Positions 1 to 5,931 of a stretch of DNA of 5,931 nucleotides are shown here, piece by piece. Source of the DNA: a candidate division Zixibacteria bacterium SM23_81 (GTDB lineage: Bacteria; SM23-81). The DNA lies in contig LJUY01000093.1 of the NCBI GenBank assembly GCA_001304015.1, positions 1 to 5,931 of the forward strand, in the 5' to 3' direction. Position 1 is the first letter of the stretch; each line of letters starts with the position of its first letter. The position numbers and the translations under genes are program-made. The notes beneath the pieces were generated by a model, which searched no databases, was not told where the DNA came from, and worked only from the letters and a program-made list of their open reading frames with translations.

Positions 1-1142
1 TGAACTCTCTCCAAATCGCTGGTAATCTCTTCCCGGACTCTTCCCTCCAGAGCTTGAAGGTTTTTCCGGGCCTGCCTGATTCTGTATTGGGCTTTGGCGA
101 TCTGGGCCTGATTCTGATCAAACACGGGGAGTTGGATGTCGAAGCCGGGGCCGAGGACGTCAGCGCCGTCGGCATCCCTTTCGTAGGAAACCCCCAGGGC
201 CACGTGTTTCAAAATGCGCGCCTTCTCCAGCTCAAGGGTTCTCTCGGCCTGGCGGACCTTGAACTGGGCCATCTGAATATCCAGCCGCTGATCTAAGGCG
301 TATCTAACAGCCTCTCCCAGATCGGGTAGCTGTGCGGGTTCTTCAGCTCCACTTTCTTGGAGGTCATACCCGACCTGCCTTGGCCCAAGGGCCAAAATCC
401 GATTGAGATGAGACCTCGCAATAGCCATCTCACCCTCAAACCGGGCAAGTTCCATCTCCGCCTCTGCCACCGTGGCCTGGGCCAAATAGACGTCCAGTTC
501 GCTCATATACCCGAAATCGCGGCGGATGGCCACCTGATCACCTATTTCCCTGAATCTGTTGAGGATTTTCTCGGTTTCATTCTTCGCTTCGCTCAAATAG
601 TAAACCGCGTCATAGGCCCGCTTGGCTTCAGCGGATGTTTCCATCACCACCTGTCCCACGCGCATAATAGTGGCCTCCATGTGGGCGGCCGCCGCCTTTT
701 TCCGGAATGGCATCTGCCATAGGTCGGAAATGGGGAAGAACAGGTCGGCATCGACGTTGGTCCCACTTCCACTGCTTATGAGAAAGCGAAATACCGCCCC
801 AAGGCTCGGATTGGAGAGCAGCCCTGCCTGGACCAGGTCGGCCTTGGAGATGCCGTGCTCCTCAAAGGCGCTCTGGAGCTGGCGGTTATTGAGGAGCGCA
901 ATTCGCACCACGTCTTGCCTGGAAAGACCATCGGCCAGGAGTGCCTCAACCTCTTTCAGAATGGCCTTCTGCTCTTCTTCCGACTTCTCCCATAGGAGCT
1001 CTTGATCCGTGCGCTCTTTCGCTATCTCCTGGAACTTCCTCCATTCATGGCCAGTCTTGACCGACGCGCATCCAACGAGCACCAGAATGAGCGATAATAA
1101 GAGGATGATTGGTCTCATTGTCCTGATTTTCAAAGACTCCAT
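1..1142 (-). CDS. TolC/CusC-family outer-membrane efflux lipoprotein (3' end beyond window)
   Basis: Outer-membrane channel component of a tripartite efflux system, by family. The frame is open from the start codon to the left edge, giving about 380 residues, so only the last part of the coiled-coil/barrel is missing. A signal with a hydrophobic core (residues 11-24) ends in a lipobox, LVGC, with the lipidated Cys at residue 25, as in CusC/OprM-type proteins. The first outer-membrane-efflux repeat starts near residue 74 (LSRQDVVRIALLNN, then QAGLLSNPSLG at 105-115). The second starts near 275 and includes GPGFDIQLPVFDQNQAQ at 331-347, a typical TolC-family signature. Long heptad-like Glu/Ala/Arg/Leu stretches fit the periplasmic helices. 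The start at 1142 is chosen over an in-frame ATG at 1118 because a strong Shine-Dalgarno site precedes it. It lies 41 bases after the multicopper oxidase, so they are probably co-transcribed. The substrate is inferred to be a metal ion such as copper from this neighbour only; the pump and adaptor genes would lie further left. Confidence 0.93.
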   Translation of the reverse strand, partial: MESLKIRTMRPIILLLSLILVLVGCASVKTGHEWRKFQEIAKERTDQELLWEKSEEEQKAILKEVEALLADGLSRQDVVRIALLNNRQLQSAFEEHGISKADLVQAGLLSNPSLGAVFRFLISSGSGTNVDADLFFPISDLWQMPFRKKAAAAHMEATIMRVGQVVMETSAEAKRAYDAVYYLSEAKNETEKILNRFREIGDQVAIRRDFGYMSELDVYLAQATVAEAEMELARFEGEMAIARSHLNRILALGPRQVGYDLQESGAEEPAQLPDLGEAVRYALDQRLDIQMAQFKVRQAERTLELEKARILKHVALGVSYERDADGADVLGPGFDIQLPVFDQNQAQIAKAQYRIRQARKNLQALEGRVREEITSDLERV

Positions 1143-1183: not shown

Positions 1184-2374
1184 TTATGTCACGTGTACAA
1201 AGGTGAACATGCCGCCATGGGGCATGATTCCCATGGGGATATCCGCATGGGCATTGACCGTGTGGTGCAGCTTATGGCAGTGAATACGCCAAAGGCCAGG
1301 GCCTAGGGCCACGAACTCCACATCTCGCGTGGTCCCAGGCGGCACATTCACGGTGTTGCCGGGCCACTGGGCCGTCTCGGGGATGAGGCCGCCCTCGGTA
1401 CCGACAATCTTCCACGTGTGGCCGTGGATGTGGATCGGGTGGCTATCCATGCTGAGGTTACCGAAACGAATCCGCACCCGATCGCCCTGCTTAACACTCA
1501 TCAACTCGATATCCGGGGCTACCTTTCCATTGAAGGTAAACCAGTTGAAATCCATGGTCACCAAGTCGGGGCTGTCATTTCCGGGAAGAAGGGCAAAGGC
1601 CTGGAGCATAATAGCGAACTCCCTATCGATTCTATACCTGGGTTTCCTGGGGTGAATCACGAAAAAGCCGCCAAGGCCCATGTGATCCTGCTTCATCATG
1701 TTGTATCCGGAATGATACATGAACGTGCCCACCTGGTGTACGGTGAACTCATAGACCCAGGTACTGCTCGGAGGGATGGGCGGCTGGCTTTCACCGCCAG
1801 CTCCATCTTGGTCAAAGGTCACCTCCAGGCCGTGCCAGTGGATGCTCGTGGGCTCAGGAAGCTCATTTTTCACCATAATCCGAACCCGATCGCCCTGTGT
1901 GACCTCGATAGTGGGCCCAGGCACCGAACCGTTGAAGCCCCAGAGTTTAACCTCCTTGGGGACCTTCATGTGGTGGACATAGGGGTTATTGCGCTTCCAA
2001 ATCTCCGATACCACCGGGTGTGGTGGGTCTCCTGTGGTGAGAAACTGCTTCACCGGCTGCATAATCAGGGTAAAGACCTTCACATCTCCGTCCATCTCGT
2101 AGCCCAGCGGGGGAACGTTGAGGGTCTGTACCCGACCCATCTGTCTGCCCATCAGGCGCGGGGGAGGCGAGATGGGGATGGTGGGATTGGCCCAGGCGAC
2201 AGGGGGATATTTTGCCATGGCCTTATGGGTATGGCTTTCCGGCTGTGGGTGAGCTGCATGCCCATGTCCCTCCATACTTCCCGATTTGGAAAAGGCTTGC
2301 CGCGTTGAAAATGCCGAAATGCCCGTGGCCAGAGCTGCCCCAATGGCCTTCAAGAACTTTCTCCTTTTCAGCAT
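1184..2374 (-). CDS. Two-domain multicopper oxidase with Tat signal peptide
   Basis: Periplasmic copper enzyme of the laccase/CueO superfamily, 396 residues. By family it oxidises a reduced substrate (Cu(I), phenol or another metal) and reduces O2 to water. The N-terminus KRRKFLKA followed by a hydrophobic stretch is a twin-arginine signal, fitting export of a folded metalloprotein. A His/Met-rich linker (34-53) follows. Domain 1, about 90-242, carries HWHG (H179, H181) and YHSG (H221). Domain 2, about 250-395, carries HPIHIHG (H312, H315, H317) and HCHKLHH (H365, C366, H367, H371), with M381 or M384 as possible axial ligands. There is no middle cupredoxin domain, so the layout resembles two-domain laccases with the type 1 site in domain 2, which trimerise; oligomerisation here is inferred. 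Oddities are that the second His of the HxH motif is Gly223 and the loop after HCH is longer than in CueO. The start at 2374 has TAGGAGGT seven bases upstream. The gene leads the unit with the TolC-family gene and follows a terminator. Confidence 0.93.
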   Translation of the reverse strand: MLKRRKFLKAIGAALATGISAFSTRQAFSKSGSMEGHGHAAHPQPESHTHKAMAKYPPVAWANPTIPISPPPRLMGRQMGRVQTLNVPPLGYEMDGDVKVFTLIMQPVKQFLTTGDPPHPVVSEIWKRNNPYVHHMKVPKEVKLWGFNGSVPGPTIEVTQGDRVRIMVKNELPEPTSIHWHGLEVTFDQDGAGGESQPPIPPSSTWVYEFTVHQVGTFMYHSGYNMMKQDHMGLGGFFVIHPRKPRYRIDREFAIMLQAFALLPGNDSPDLVTMDFNWFTFNGKVAPDIELMSVKQGDRVRIRFGNLSMDSHPIHIHGHTWKIVGTEGGLIPETAQWPGNTVNVPPGTTRDVEFVALGPGLWRIHCHKLHHTVNAHADIPMGIMPHGGMFTFVHVT

Positions 2375-2400
2375 GACTTGGACCTCCTAAACAATAGTCT

Positions 2401-2415
2401 AAACCCACACGGTTT
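2401..2415. promoter_or_regulatory. Short inverted repeat upstream of the oxidase (possible operator)
   Basis: A perfect 5-bp palindrome, AAACC then CACAC then GGTTT, lies about 12 bases upstream of the Shine-Dalgarno site of the multicopper oxidase and downstream of the terminator, where its promoter should be. The size fits a small dimeric regulator site, but a 5-bp half-site can arise by chance. No convincing -35/-10 pair was found in 2389-2452: the best -10-like box, TATTGT, abuts the Shine-Dalgarno site and would leave almost no leader. It is not a recognised CueR or CopY box. Confidence 0.2.
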
Positions 2416-2452
2416 CTCCATGCTCACATCGCCTGTCGAACACCCATACTCC

Positions 2453-2481
2453 AAAAAAGGGGCAAACAGTACGTTTGCCCC
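2453..2481 (-). terminator. Rho-independent terminator after the htrA/cytochrome-remnant unit
   Basis: Read on the minus strand, GGGGCAAAC and GTTTGCCCC form a perfect 9-bp stem with a 5-base loop (GTACT), followed directly by six T residues. The arms are at 2473-2481 and 2459-2467, the T-run at 2453-2458. It points the same way as all the genes and lies about 115 bases past the cytochrome-remnant stop and about 78 bases before the oxidase start. It therefore separates two transcription units. On the plus strand the stem has no T-tract after it, so it is unidirectional. Confidence 0.88.
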
Positions 2482-2524
2482 TCCCTCTTCACGCAATAAG
2501 CCAATCGAGAATCTTCGGGTAATC

Positions 2525-2596
2525 GGCAGCACGTTACCTTAGCAAAATACCCGCCCCCTGTGAAGATGATTTTCAAAGGTCTGATAACATGCTGCC
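2525..2596. repeat. 12-bp inverted repeat spanning 72 bases, directly after the cytochrome remnant
   Basis: GGCAGCACGTTA at 2525-2536 and TAACATGCTGCC at 2585-2596 are reverse complements except at one position. In minus-strand RNA that position is a G-U pair, so the stem would be fully paired around a 48-base loop. The outer arm begins at the base next to the TGA stop of the cytochrome remnant. It could be an mRNA-stabilising hairpin or the ends of a tiny mobile-element remnant. No flanking target duplication was seen, and the loop has no coding content. Confidence 0.4.
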
Positions 2597-2749
2597 TCAC
2601 TCGAGGGTTTTCAAATATTCGATCAGGGCGTCCAAATCGGCTTCGGACATCTGCCACCGGGGCACGGTCCAGTCCATGACATCTCCGTCCGCTTCCAACC
2701 CTTGAGCGATGGCAGCAAGTGGCCTGCGCGCCGATAGTTGCCGCGTCAC
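2597..2749 (-). pseudogene. C-terminal remnant of a c-type cytochrome
   Basis: The frame ending at TGA 2597-2599 encodes, from 2719 on, IAQGLEADGDV, MDWTVPRWQM and SEADLDALIEYLKTLE. This is the typical C-terminus of small class-I c-type cytochromes, where a xMPxWxM segment precedes a final helix of the form SDxDLxxLIxYLKTL. No CxxCH haem-attachment motif or signal peptide exists upstream, because that space is occupied by the end of htrA in another frame. The usual Met of MPRW, the likely axial haem ligand, is Val here. A GTG at 2749 overlaps the htrA stop (GTGA) and could give a 50-residue peptide, but without a haem motif it cannot be a cytochrome. I read it as the broken 3' end of a gene that once stood upstream of the oxidase, a combination that suits a copper oxidase with an electron partner. 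The first ~10 codons (2749-2720) show no family similarity. Confidence 0.7.
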
Positions 2750-3819
2750 CGTGGTTTCTCGTCCAGCGTCACTTCCATGTGGAGAACCTTACCTTTTCGT
2801 AAAACCTTCAATTCAACCCTATCCCCGGGCCGGTGATCTCGGATCATCCGTAGCAGGTCATTGGAGGATGTCACCTTTTTCCCATCCATCTCAATAATTA
2901 CATCACCTCCCACCGGGATTAAGGAATTTCCCACTTGAACCAGCCTATCTCCCCCTCGCAGGCCTGCCCTGTCAAGAGGGCCACCTCGAATGACTTCCGC
3001 GATCACTGCGCCACGCTCGACTTGAAGCCCTAGAGCTCTCGCAAATTCAGGAATTAACGGATAGACTGAGGCCCCGATCCACGGATAGGAAACGTGTCCC
3101 TTCGAGATCAGCTCTGGCAAGATTCGTTTGGCAATATTGACCGGGATGGCAAAGCCGATTCCCACGCTGGCCCCGGTCGGACTAATAATGGCTGAGTTGA
3201 TGCCGATGATCCTCCCTTTGGAATCTAGCAGGGGGCCACCGGAGTTGCCCGGGTTAATGGCCGCATCGGTCTGAATTACGTCCTCGATCATTGTCCCCGC
3301 CTCCGACCGAATGCTCCTTCCCAGGGAGCTGATGATCCCTGTGGTCAGTGTCTGTCTCAGACCAAAGGGATTCCCAATAGCCAAAACCTTCTGGCCTATT
3401 TGGAGTTGGGATGAGTCCCCCATGGAAATTACCGTTAGTTTCTCCTTTGGCGCGTCAATCTTTATGACCGCCAGGTCATTGTCCGGATCGGAACCCACAA
3501 ACCGGGCAGGCCATTTACTCCCATCGCTTAACGTGACCTCTAATTTCCTTGAATCCCGAATGACATGGTAATTGGTCAATATGTGACCGGAGTCGTCTAT
3601 GATTGAGCCCGAACCAGCCCCCTCCCTGGGGATCGGGTTGAAAAAGAAATCCCGCTCAAGGACCACGCTCGTGATATTGACCACACCGGGACCAACCCGA
3701 CGATAGATAGAGATGTTGTTTTCCTCGTCCTCGGTTTCCGCAACACTAAGACTGTATCCCGCTGCAAAAAGGAGTCCCAGGGCGAATAGCATACATTTCC
3801 ATTTTCGAATTCTATTCAT
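2746..3819 (-). CDS. Periplasmic HtrA/DegP-family serine protease, single PDZ domain
   Basis: Envelope quality-control endopeptidase that degrades or refolds damaged exported proteins. It has 357 residues from the chosen ATG. A Sec signal (RIRKWK, then a hydrophobic core, cleavage near SVA/ET at about residue 27) sends it to the periplasm. The trypsin-like domain, about 35-235, has a complete triad: His85 in TNYHVI, Asp115 in DNDLAVIKID and Ser193 in GNSGGP, plus the oxyanion-loop INPGNSGG. One PDZ domain spans about 247-350 and includes GGPLDRAGLRGGDRLVQVG. The length matches single-PDZ family members, so it looks intact. A GTG nine bases upstream (3828) is in frame, but AAGGAAGGTG is correctly spaced for the ATG at 3819 and overlaps that GTG. 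The gene is only 14 bases after the truncated thioredoxin-like gene, and its Shine-Dalgarno overlaps that stop codon. It could be called degP- or degQ-like, but a specific symbol is not supported. Confidence 0.95.
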   Translation of the reverse strand: MNRIRKWKCMLFALGLLFAAGYSLSVAETEDEENNISIYRRVGPGVVNITSVVLERDFFFNPIPREGAGSGSIIDDSGHILTNYHVIRDSRKLEVTLSDGSKWPARFVGSDPDNDLAVIKIDAPKEKLTVISMGDSSQLQIGQKVLAIGNPFGLRQTLTTGIISSLGRSIRSEAGTMIEDVIQTDAAINPGNSGGPLLDSKGRIIGINSAIISPTGASVGIGFAIPVNIAKRILPELISKGHVSYPWIGASVYPLIPEFARALGLQVERGAVIAEVIRGGPLDRAGLRGGDRLVQVGNSLIPVGGDVIIEMDGKKVTSSNDLLRMIRDHRPGDRVELKVLRKGKVLHMEVTLDEKPR

Positions 3820-3825
3820 CTTCAA

Positions 3826-3835
3826 CACCTTCCTT
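3826..3835 (-). promoter_or_regulatory. htrA ribosome binding site overlapping the upstream stop codon
   Basis: AAGGAAGGTG on the minus strand lies six bases before the ATG at 3819 and shares two bases with the TAA (3834-3836) of the thioredoxin-like gene. This arrangement suggests translational coupling. It argues against the in-frame GTG at 3828, which lies inside the site itself. Confidence 0.6.
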
Positions 3836-4202
3836 ACGCTTGCTTTAAACGAGGAACATCAGAGGACATCCCCCAGCCACCAATGGTAAAATCCTTATCC
3901 TTAAATTCGCTGTAGGGCTTTTCCATGGAGGGCATTTCCCCTCGACACGGCAAACACCAGGTGGCCCAACAATTCAGAAAGACGATCTTCCCTCTGTGAT
4001 CCTCCAGCTTCACTTCTTCGCCATTGAGATCCTTTAGCGTGAAGCTTGGGGCCATGGGCTTTTCCTCGATTGGAGCGATCCCAAGAGCAGCCCAATAATG
4101 CCTGCCTGCAACAGCACGGCTTGGTGGGATAACGGAAATGAGAAAGAGGCAGATGAGGTTGATTCCAAATAGTGGAAGAGATCTTCCATGTCTTCTCCCC
4201 AT
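3834..4202 (-). CDS. TlpA/ResA-like thioredoxin-fold protein, C-terminally truncated
   Basis: Exported thiol-disulfide oxidoreductase family (redoxin/AhpC-TSA fold), which by family reduces disulfides in the periplasm, for example for cytochrome c or copper-protein maturation. It has 122 residues. A basic N-terminus and hydrophobic segment (about 8-30) form a signal peptide or anchor. The AlkylHydroperoxide/TlpA start, MAPSFTLKDLNGEEVKLED, is at 50-68 and the active site WCLPC is at 82-86 (Cys83, Cys86), followed by RGEMPSMEK. After FTI (residue 107) the family normally continues for some 60-80 residues, including the cis-Pro strand. Here it ends after IGGWGMSSDVPRLKQA, so the second half of the fold is absent. 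The final residues vaguely resemble the extreme C-terminus of some TlpA proteins (GxxxWSSPExxxL), so an in-frame internal deletion is possible. It is probably non-functional or altered. The start at 4202 is chosen by GGAGGT at 4207-4212; an in-frame TTG at 4214 is less likely. Confidence 0.75.
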   Translation of the reverse strand: MGRRHGRSLPLFGINLICLFLISVIPPSRAVAGRHYWAALGIAPIEEKPMAPSFTLKDLNGEEVKLEDHRGKIVFLNCWATWCLPCRGEMPSMEKPYSEFKDKDFTIGGWGMSSDVPRLKQA

Positions 4203-4276
4203 CCAAACCTCCAAAGGATGAGTGGGGAATCACCGGCCATCTCGCTGAAAACCAGCATTGAGAAACACTATCGTAT

Positions 4277-4762
4277 CTACCTATTCTTTTCGGCCGCCTC
4301 TTTAACGATCGTTCCAACCAGAATGTCCATCCGTCGCTTCAGCTTGTCGAGATCTTTATCCTGGTAGTGCTTAAATAGATATGAGGGCTGATAATAAATG
4401 ACATCCACTCTCCCGTCATCCAATTCCATTACTGCAATCTTCAAGGGCATTTCTAAAACTGCCCTAGGCTCTGCTCTCAATACATCATGTTCCAGCTCTG
4501 AACCAACAAATCCAATGGTAATGGCGTTCTTACCCTCGAAACCTGCCATCCCCATTACTTCTTCACGGTTAAGCTCAAAAATGACCCTCAAGTTTCTCGC
4601 TTCAACTGCACCTTTCAATTTGTTTATTGTCTCGGAAAAGGAATTGTGAGAATTCACCACCACGGGTTGAGATGGAGTCCTCACATCGGTTGACCAAGCC
4701 TCAGGTAGTAAGAAAAGTCCGGTTATCGAGACCACCAGGAAAATCCCTAGAACCTTCATCAT
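4277..4762 (-). CDS. Secreted DUF302-domain protein
   Basis: Function unknown, 161 residues. A Sec signal peptide (MMKV, hydrophobic to about residue 20, cleavage near EAWS/TD at 24-25) predicts periplasmic location. Residues about 40-130 match the DUF302 pattern: a helix with ETINKLKGAVEARNLRVIFELN, then AGFEGKNAITIGFVGS, then the conserved run AVLEMPLKIAVMELDDG and VDVIYYQPSYLF. A basic helical tail follows (135-161). No Cys, no catalytic motif and no haem site are visible. DUF302 proteins are often found beside sulfur, cytochrome or metal genes, which suits this context but does not assign a role. Two adjacent ATGs (4762 and 4759) are possible starts; the AGGGGGT site is better spaced for 4759. 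It lies 76 bases after the hydroxylase-family gene and 74 bases before the thioredoxin-like gene, so it is likely in the same transcript. Confidence 0.85.
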   Translation of the reverse strand: MMKVLGIFLVVSITGLFLLPEAWSTDVRTPSQPVVVNSHNSFSETINKLKGAVEARNLRVIFELNREEVMGMAGFEGKNAITIGFVGSELEHDVLRAEPRAVLEMPLKIAVMELDDGRVDVIYYQPSYLFKHYQDKDLDKLKRRMDILVGTIVKEAAEKNR

Positions 4763-4779
4763 CTACCCCCTTTTTCACC

Positions 4780-4807
4780 AATTTATGACTTCCAGCGGAG
4801 CCGCCAA
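4780..4807 (-). promoter_or_regulatory. Weak candidate promoter before the DUF302 gene
   Basis: TTGGCG at 4807-4802 and TAAATT at 4785-4780 on the minus strand are spaced by 16 bases, a loose sigma-70 layout, and would start transcription just before the DUF302 ribosome site. Both boxes are imperfect and the gap is only 76 bases, so this may be chance. If real, the DUF302-tlpA-htrA genes could be transcribed apart from the two genes upstream. Confidence 0.2.
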
Positions 4808-4838
4808 GCCTTTATTTTTTGCTGTGCTCTGCCCATTT

Positions 4839-5681
4839 CTACCTGCCCCCGATAACAGGTTCTCTTCCACTCCGATTGATGGCATATTCACCCGGTTTGC
4901 CGATGAACGGAAGAGCCAACATCCACGGGAGAGTGAGGCGCCTGGCGTCCCGAAACTGGGAAAGTCCGATAGCCATACCTTCATGCCCCGCAGCCGGCTG
5001 ATCACGATAAGTACCGAGCAGACGGTCCCACCAGGGCAGATTGAAACCAAAATTGCTGTTGGTTTCGCGTATCACCACGGAATGATGTACCCGATGCATG
5101 TCCGGGGTCACCACGAGGAGACGGAGCTTCCGATCGATCCCCGATGGGAGATGAATATTGCCATGGTTAAACATGGACGTGGCATTGAGGAGAACCTCGA
5201 AAGTAAGCACAGCTGAGGCGGGCGGTCCAATTAAGACTACAACAGAAAGTTTGATGACCATAGATAGAACCATCTCTATTGGGTGGAAACGCAGCCCGGT
5301 TGTCACGTCAAAATCCAGGTCAGCGTGGTGCATCATATGAAGACGCCACAGGATCGGAACTGCATGAAACATGACATGCTGAAGATAGATGACTAAATCC
5401 AGCACTATCACGCCAACCACCACTTCAAGCCAGTATGGCAGCCCAACATTGTTCAACAAGCCCCAACCTCCTTCCTGAGCCAGCAGCGCCAACCCCATGG
5501 CCAAGATAGGAAACACCAAACGCACCACTGCGGGATTGAGAAAGGTGATACCCAGGTTGCTTAACCATCGCACGGTCTTGGAGGTGGTCGGGGTGCGGCG
5601 CGGTGCCAATAGTTCCCAAATCGCCACCAAGGCGAATATGCCGAAGAAAAAGGCAACCCGAATAGCAATTTCATTTTGCAT
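4839..5681 (-). CDS. Membrane fatty-acid-hydroxylase/sterol-desaturase family protein
   Basis: Integral membrane di-iron oxygenase family, 280 residues. Members hydroxylate or desaturate lipids or sterol-like molecules with O2; the substrate here cannot be read from sequence. His clusters characteristic of the family are H102-VMF-H106, H115-MM-H118-H119, H133 in RFHP, H173-GNI-H177, and H196-RV-H199-H200 near the C-terminus. Hydrophobic segments lie at about 7-25, 50-69, 82-101 and 136-170, with the His motifs facing one side. The frame is open upstream to 5870, but that stretch overlaps the SHOCT gene and is Arg/Gly/Glu-rich and unlike the family, so the ATG at 5681 (MQNEIAIRV) is chosen. 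Its only Shine-Dalgarno-like site, AGAGGT, is about 13 bases away and therefore weak. It is 50 bases after the SHOCT gene and is probably in the same operon. The family may affect membrane lipids under stress; that is inference. Confidence 0.9.
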   Translation of the reverse strand: MQNEIAIRVAFFFGIFALVAIWELLAPRRTPTTSKTVRWLSNLGITFLNPAVVRLVFPILAMGLALLAQEGGWGLLNNVGLPYWLEVVVGVIVLDLVIYLQHVMFHAVPILWRLHMMHHADLDFDVTTGLRFHPIEMVLSMVIKLSVVVLIGPPASAVLTFEVLLNATSMFNHGNIHLPSGIDRKLRLLVVTPDMHRVHHSVVIRETNSNFGFNLPWWDRLLGTYRDQPAAGHEGMAIGLSQFRDARRLTLPWMLALPFIGKPGEYAINRSGREPVIGGR

Positions 5682-5731
5682 AATGCTTATCCGAACCTCT
5701 TTGCTCCCAGTTTGTATGAAAGGTTCTGGAA

Positions 5732-5931
5732 CTAGGCCAGGTCTTTCTTTTTCTCCTCGAACTCCTGTTTGTCGATCTCTCCCCGTGCGTACCTTCGCTT
5801 GAGGATCTCGAGCGGAGAATCCTCTGATCTCGCGGCGCGACCACCAGCAATCGTCGATATCACCAACCACCTGATCAGAAAGACGATTCCCACAATTACC
5901 GCAATCCAGAAGGCGGCCATGAGGATGGTCC
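5732..5931 (-). CDS. Small SHOCT-domain membrane protein (5' end probably beyond window)
   Basis: A transmembrane helix (from the ATG at 5920, residues 4-22: FWIAVIVGIVFLIRWLVIS) is followed by a charged linker and a C-terminal SHOCT motif at 35-61 (SPLEILKRRYARGEIDKQEF, then EEKKKDLA). SHOCT is a short oligomerisation-type module of unclear role found at the C-terminus of many small membrane proteins. The frame stays open from the ATG at 5920 to the right edge and no Shine-Dalgarno site precedes that ATG. Family members usually carry a Gly/Met/Trp-rich leader before the helix, so the true start is likely outside the window. It is followed 50 bases later by the hydroxylase-family gene. Its function is unknown. 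Confidence 0.82.
   Translation of the reverse strand, partial: TILMAAFWIAVIVGIVFLIRWLVISTIAGGRAARSEDSPLEILKRRYARGEIDKQEFEEKKKDLA

Follow-up and report, generated by a model that had tools for sequence, protein, structure and literature searches.

Fixed loss of one type-3 copper histidine in a clade of two-domain multicopper oxidases encoded beside a TolC-family protein

We examined a multicopper oxidase (MCO) gene and its neighbors in a 5,931-nucleotide stretch of DNA (hereafter the window) from the candidate division Zixibacteria bacterium SM23_81 (contig LJUY01000093.1). The gene lies on the minus strand (1184..2374) and encodes a two-domain MCO of 396 residues that belongs to what we term the HxG clade. 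Directly downstream, also on the minus strand, is a gene for a TolC-family outer membrane efflux lipoprotein (3..1142; Pfam OEP, PF02321; lipobox LVGC), incomplete at the window start, where the contig ends. Upstream (2746-5931, minus strand) are genes for an HtrA/DegP protease, a TlpA-like protein, a DUF302 protein, a member of the fatty-acid-hydroxylase family and a SHOCT protein. This arrangement is largely common to three related loci (L007, L008 and L009), and the block of envelope-stress and copper genes seems to stay together across these loci and the window. The TlpA/ResA-like thioredoxin reading frame (3834-4214, minus strand) encodes 126 residues, compared with 190 in L007 and 203 in L008, and is probably truncated. 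Between the HtrA and MCO genes (2605-2720, minus strand) lies the remnant of a small protein ending ...MSEADLDALIEYLKTLE, with a C-terminus that by eye resembles that of a cytochrome c; L008 carries a longer reading frame with a like ending (5223-5684) that has no Pfam match. The closest relatives of the contig were found in one class (G004-G006), with none in the other genomes searched from the window's phylum. The contig is also slightly atypical in tetranucleotide composition (r of 0.80-0.86 to the other contigs vs. 0.85-0.94 among those). Either transfer or mis-binning may have brought the contig into this genome, the two being indistinguishable.

The MCO has only two cupredoxin domains, Cu-oxidase_3 (PF07732, residues 141-244) and Cu-oxidase_2 (PF07731, residues 273-374), and the absence of a middle domain, proposed in an earlier note made from the DNA, is borne out by these Pfam matches. 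The two-domain fold is likewise predicted by a single-chain AlphaFold2 model (33 sequences, mean pLDDT 82.3, pTM 0.81), whose best structural matches were two MCOs of this type, 2zwn and 3g5w (Z 31.7; 265 residues superposed with an rmsd of 1.6-1.7). The protein begins with a probable Tat signal peptide (residues 1 to ~28; 2291..2374, minus strand), recognized by eye from RRKFLK in the Tat-like start MLKRRKFLKAIG, and continues with a His-rich stretch (residues ~33-54, SMEGHGHAAHPQPESHTHKAMA; 2213..2278, minus strand) that has comparable counterparts in clade members. Its sole cysteine, C366, is in the HCH motif of domain 2, and the type-1 (T1) copper ligands are confined to that domain; domain 1 has no cysteine, and its motif 2 reads HSG. 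Judged from the sequence, this is the layout of a type B two-domain MCO as defined in PMC13151041. NCBIfam models for CopA (TIGR01480, 145.4 vs. a cut-off of 478.95 bits), CueO (NF008205, 84.9 vs. 525 bits) and copper nitrite reductase (TIGR02376, 62.9 vs. 296.3 bits) all matched far under their cut-offs, as did the laccase models.

Three of the four copper motifs, all on the minus strand, are intact. Motif 1 (HWH, residues 179-181; 1832..1840) supplies type-2 (T2) and type-3 (T3) ligands and keeps both His residues in all 37 clade members. Motif 3 (HPIHIH, residues 312-317; 1424..1441) provides H312, H315 and H317 as T1, T2 and T3 ligands, present in 35-36 of the 36 clade members with letters there, and motif 4 (HCH, residues 365-367; 1274..1282), with T3, T1 and T3 ligands in that order, is kept in 35/36. 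His371, a T1 ligand at Cys+5 (1262..1264, minus strand), is present in 34 of 35. Motif 2, in contrast, reads HSG (residues 221-223; 1706..1714, codons CAT TCC GGA; YHSG with residue 220), with its first His kept and its second, T3 His replaced by Gly223, and the translation agrees with the earlier note on this point. Gly223 aligns without gaps to the second His of the HSH, HPH or HCH motif in all 36 outgroup MCOs and to the His of HSH in PDB 4f7k. The position corresponds to H136 of bilirubin oxidase and H137 of lacTT, that is, to the third His of one T3 copper whose partners here are H317 and H365. The T3-alpha copper of lacTT is bound by H137, H402 and H449 (PMC6487685), and each T3 copper of bilirubin oxidase has three His ligands (PMC6337666). 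The full eight-His trinuclear center built from four HxH-type motifs is absent here, and no clade member (0/37) has His at residue 223. At the remaining positions assigned to copper binding by homology, leaving out the axial one, no more than one or two of the clade members with letters there depart from the expected residue, with the degenerate L140 as the outlier.

A scan of bacterial and archaeal genomes yielded 36 loci, to which phylum searches added further ones. After removal of duplicates, the tree comprised 73 MCOs of at least 270 residues, 37 without the His and 36 with it. Residue 223 is Gly in 29 and Glu in 8 members of the clade, whereas all 36 outgroup MCOs have His. The His-less and His-bearing sets form the two sides of one branch (SH-aLRT 100), and a single change suffices to explain them; the tree itself came from a quick search and contains three long end branches, namely L140 and two outgroups. 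The loss of the His is therefore fixed in the clade, arose once and was never regained, in keeping with the earlier suggestion of an altered T3 site in a divergent two-domain clade. The gene in the window shares with this clade the lack of His at 223, Lys or Arg at 228 and a TolC gene downstream. The other clade-specific positions, besides K228, are W61, S69, P72, Q78, M79, G80, G91, Q106, N266, A286, Q296, W321, V324, G339 and M384. When compared with four relatives, the window gene gave dN/dS values of 0.095-0.135, and purifying selection of this strength (dN/dS ~0.1) argues against decay.

By record titles and search groups, the hosts of the clade span about five phyla: Thermodesulfobacteriota/Desulfobacterota, Nitrospinota, Nitrospirota, the Armatimonadota group (WS1, Hebobacteria) and Dependentiae. 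Only genomes of Dependentiae carry it often (~20 of 101); in the other groups searched it is rare (2/295, 2/297 and 5/251 genomes). No second copy was found among the four genomes searched in the window's own phylum, and no relative was found on viral contigs. In one branch from Dependentiae (L025-L029, L131, L133 and L134), motif 1 is HSH rather than HWH and motif 2 is HGE rather than HxG, so that this copper site has changed a second time. The glutamate of this branch could serve as a T3 ligand. L140 (1465-2736) lacks both HCH and a neighboring TolC gene and is apparently a decayed or copper-free form. The earlier note had allowed that HSG and the longer loop after HCH might be the normal state of a characterized clade with standard copper ligands. 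The variant is indeed normal in a clade, but we found no purified or characterized member of that clade. Nor did the papers searched yield anything usable on MCOs of Dependentiae or on mutants of T3 ligands, and hence no measured effect of exactly this loss.

The loop that follows HCH is also unusual. It is enlarged, as had been noted, and extends over residues 372-389 (1208..1261, minus strand), of which 372-386 have pLDDT values below 50 in the model. The translation confirms H371 at Cys+5, His376 at Cys+10, and Met381 and Met384 further on; the alignment adds His386 and Met389, the latter at Cys+23. In each of the 34 clade members that could be measured, a Gly-Met pair at Cys+23 immediately precedes the last strand; the corresponding pair is at Cys+15 in MCOs from Chloroflexota and at Cys+75 to +78 in the sister clade. 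The canonical spacing from Cys to axial Met is +10, as in lacTT (C450/M460; PMC6487685) and bilirubin oxidase (C457/M467; PMC6337666). Residue 376 is His in 30/36 clade members and Met in the other six, the Met forms read so far coming from Nitrospirota and Nitrospinota. A changed T1 axial ligand is no more than a possibility: His376 is largely kept, but Met389, which had been overlooked, is conserved just before the last strand in 34 of 35 members. Judging by these patterns, either residue 376 or Met389 could be axial. Met389 is conserved, and the sister clades have Met at Cys+10 and, in most cases, a further Met ahead of the last strand. A His in the axial position of lacTT lowered efficiency ~400-fold but hardly altered the potential (PMC6487685). 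We therefore make no claim that the T1 potential is changed here. A search of PDB sequences with domain 2 gave matches that ended before this loop.

The TolC gene lies directly downstream of the MCO gene in 34 of the 37 clade loci with enough flanking sequence to show it; the exceptions are L009, the degenerate L140 and L031, in which the MCO gene is split and TolC comes after the second half. L009 also encodes a second, three-domain CopA-like MCO (2109-3635) a few genes upstream of its HxG MCO. The next sister clade in the tree, the proteobacterial "copper oxidases" with an HPHxDEM motif (e.g., Sulfitobacter WP_107277643.1, from plasmid copper operons), has the flipped order, with TolC upstream of the MCO in 10/11 loci. 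Its members occur in operons of TolC, MCO and copper-binding protein genes with CopC/CopD or heavy-metal ATPases nearby, and some loci of the HxG clade likewise have a heavy-metal-type P-type ATPase or DUF326 Cys-rich proteins in the vicinity. In the clade loci read by eye, TolC had neither an adaptor gene nor an RND pump gene beside it. This gene context fits a function in copper tolerance. Bradyrhizobium became less tolerant of copper when an MCO gene or a tolC gene was disrupted (PMC5057107), though the proteins concerned may belong neither to the HxG clade nor to its sister.

Among known systems, the closest in layout are the type B two-domain MCOs, such as the Streptomyces small laccase SLAC and CjMCO from Cellvibrio japonicus (superfamily N, PMC13151041), which likewise have two cupredoxin domains, a T1 site in domain 2 and the four copper motifs in the same order. 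CjMCO, compared here by its description rather than its sequence, also shares a Tat signal and a His-rich N-terminus with the window MCO (PMC13151041); without that N-terminus it binds four coppers per protomer (PMC13151041). However, CjMCO and SLAC have the complete His set, in contrast to the HxG or HGE of motif 2 in our clade. Since one defining feature, the full His set, is missing, we do not call the window MCO a full member of type B, although it probably works like one. The HPHxDEM sister proteins, at 46-48% identity, share two domains, the signature HCHK[SL]HH and the pairing with TolC, but differ in having the complete His set, TolC upstream and a Met-rich insert that lengthens the loop after HCH by another ~50-55 residues. 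The type C MCOs 3g5w and 2zwn, despite being the best structural matches to the predicted fold, have T1 in domain 1 (HCH in motif 2) and none in domain 2, whereas the window MCO has no Cys in domain 1. The cuprous oxidases CueO and CopA have the same kind of copper motifs and likely do the same job, oxidation of Cu(I), but they have three domains and a complete His set, and their family models score the window MCO far under the cut-offs. The insect protein MCORP (PMC4203857) is another MCO fold from which copper ligands have disappeared in nature; MCORP, however, has lost the Cys and most His residues and binds little copper, whereas the clade described here has lost a single His.

We lean, with moderate confidence, toward a periplasmic Cu(I) oxidase that has an under-coordinated T3 copper and acts within a two-gene copper-tolerance unit. 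The MCO would be located in the periplasm, probably after Tat export, with its T1 copper in domain 2, and by homology would form a trimer, each trinuclear center combining motifs 1 and 2 from one subunit with motifs 3 and 4 from its neighbor. One T3 His was lost once, its place being taken by Gly or, in a branch from Dependentiae, by Glu, while the T2 copper and the other T3 copper would retain all of their His ligands. The affected T3 copper would then be held by two His residues (317 and 365) plus solvent, or plus Glu in the HGE branch. Cu(I) would be oxidized at the T1 site, from which electrons would pass to the altered trinuclear center, and the MCO would be one half of the tolerance unit, with the TolC-like channel as the other. 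We infer the trimer, the copper loading, the Cu(I) oxidase activity and the role in copper tolerance. Some considerations weigh against this role: without one T3 ligand, the center could be incapable of four-electron reduction of O2, several hosts are probably anaerobes or intracellular, and, with no adaptor or pump gene adjoining TolC in the loci read, a share of TolC in export is only tentative. A bolder variant, which we put forward tentatively, is that the seven-His trinuclear center, with its open or Glu-ligated T3 copper, serves a reaction other than four-electron O2 reduction, such as slow Cu(I) oxidation tuned to low oxygen, peroxide chemistry or handover of copper to a dedicated outer-membrane channel.

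The affected T3 copper may be either under-coordinated or helped by a non-His residue. It is possible, though doubtful, that the lost His is compensated by Lys228, by Met226/227, by a residue from the adjacent subunit or, where motif 2 is HGE, by Glu223, which would leave an ordinary oxidase with one odd ligand. Near the gap, only Lys228 (1691..1693, minus strand), a basic residue five positions past the lost ligand, is specific to the clade (35 Lys and 2 Arg in the 37 clade members vs. 0/36 outgroups), and it lies in a short helix (226-231) of the model. Lysine, however, is a rare copper ligand. A nearby Met, which the earlier note had named as a substitute, fares better in conservation than in specificity: M227 occurs in 35/37 clade members but also in 13/36 outgroups with the complete His set. 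A carboxylate stands exactly at 223 in the HGE branch, yet the aligned protein nowhere contains a conserved His that is peculiar to the clade. H231, the other residue suggested earlier, is His in just 8 of 37 members, with S, G, A, M, D, Q or R in the rest, and we rejected it as a clade-wide replacement.

An unlikely alternative is that the protein is an oxidase no longer, and that its copper sites serve storage or structure in a periplasmic protein that binds copper and delivers it to the TolC-like channel. Such a function would agree with the lack of a ligand that the O2-reducing pair requires, as well as with the His-rich N-terminus, the loop with its His and Met residues and the strict pairing with an outer membrane channel, and MCO relatives without ligands and activity do exist (e.g., insect MCORP, PMC4203857). 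However, the T1 Cys and the HCH bridge, which are needed only for electron transfer to oxygen, are kept in 35/36 clade members, whereas non-enzymatic relatives such as MCORP have lost the Cys and many His residues. Reduction of another small molecule by the altered center, for example nitrite or NO as in copper nitrite reductases, appears very improbable. The fold family is the same, nitrite reductases are among the structural matches and some hosts presumably live without oxygen, but the TIGR02376 score given above is far too low, copper nitrite reductases have their T1 site in domain 1 rather than domain 2, and the gene context is one of copper efflux. Finally, a sequencing error or pseudogene can be dismissed as the source of Gly223, for although the window is a 5.9-kb contig of a 99-contig draft genome and a few relatives are broken or degenerate (L031 and L140), Gly or Glu occupies this position in 37/37 independent sequences and dN/dS is ~0.1. 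An error at codon 223 is excluded by the absence of His throughout the clade, and the HxG form of motif 2 is a natural variant of a type B-like two-domain MCO.

The fixed loss, with a single origin, of one T3 His while the other ligands are kept is real and should be somewhat surprising to MCO specialists. What defines MCOs is a set of copper ligands that hardly varies, and a clade that lacks exactly one T3 His, keeps the rest under selection and extends over about five phyla amounts to a natural experiment on which ligands O2 reduction needs. It also bears on how bacteria that live at low oxygen or inside other cells detoxify copper.
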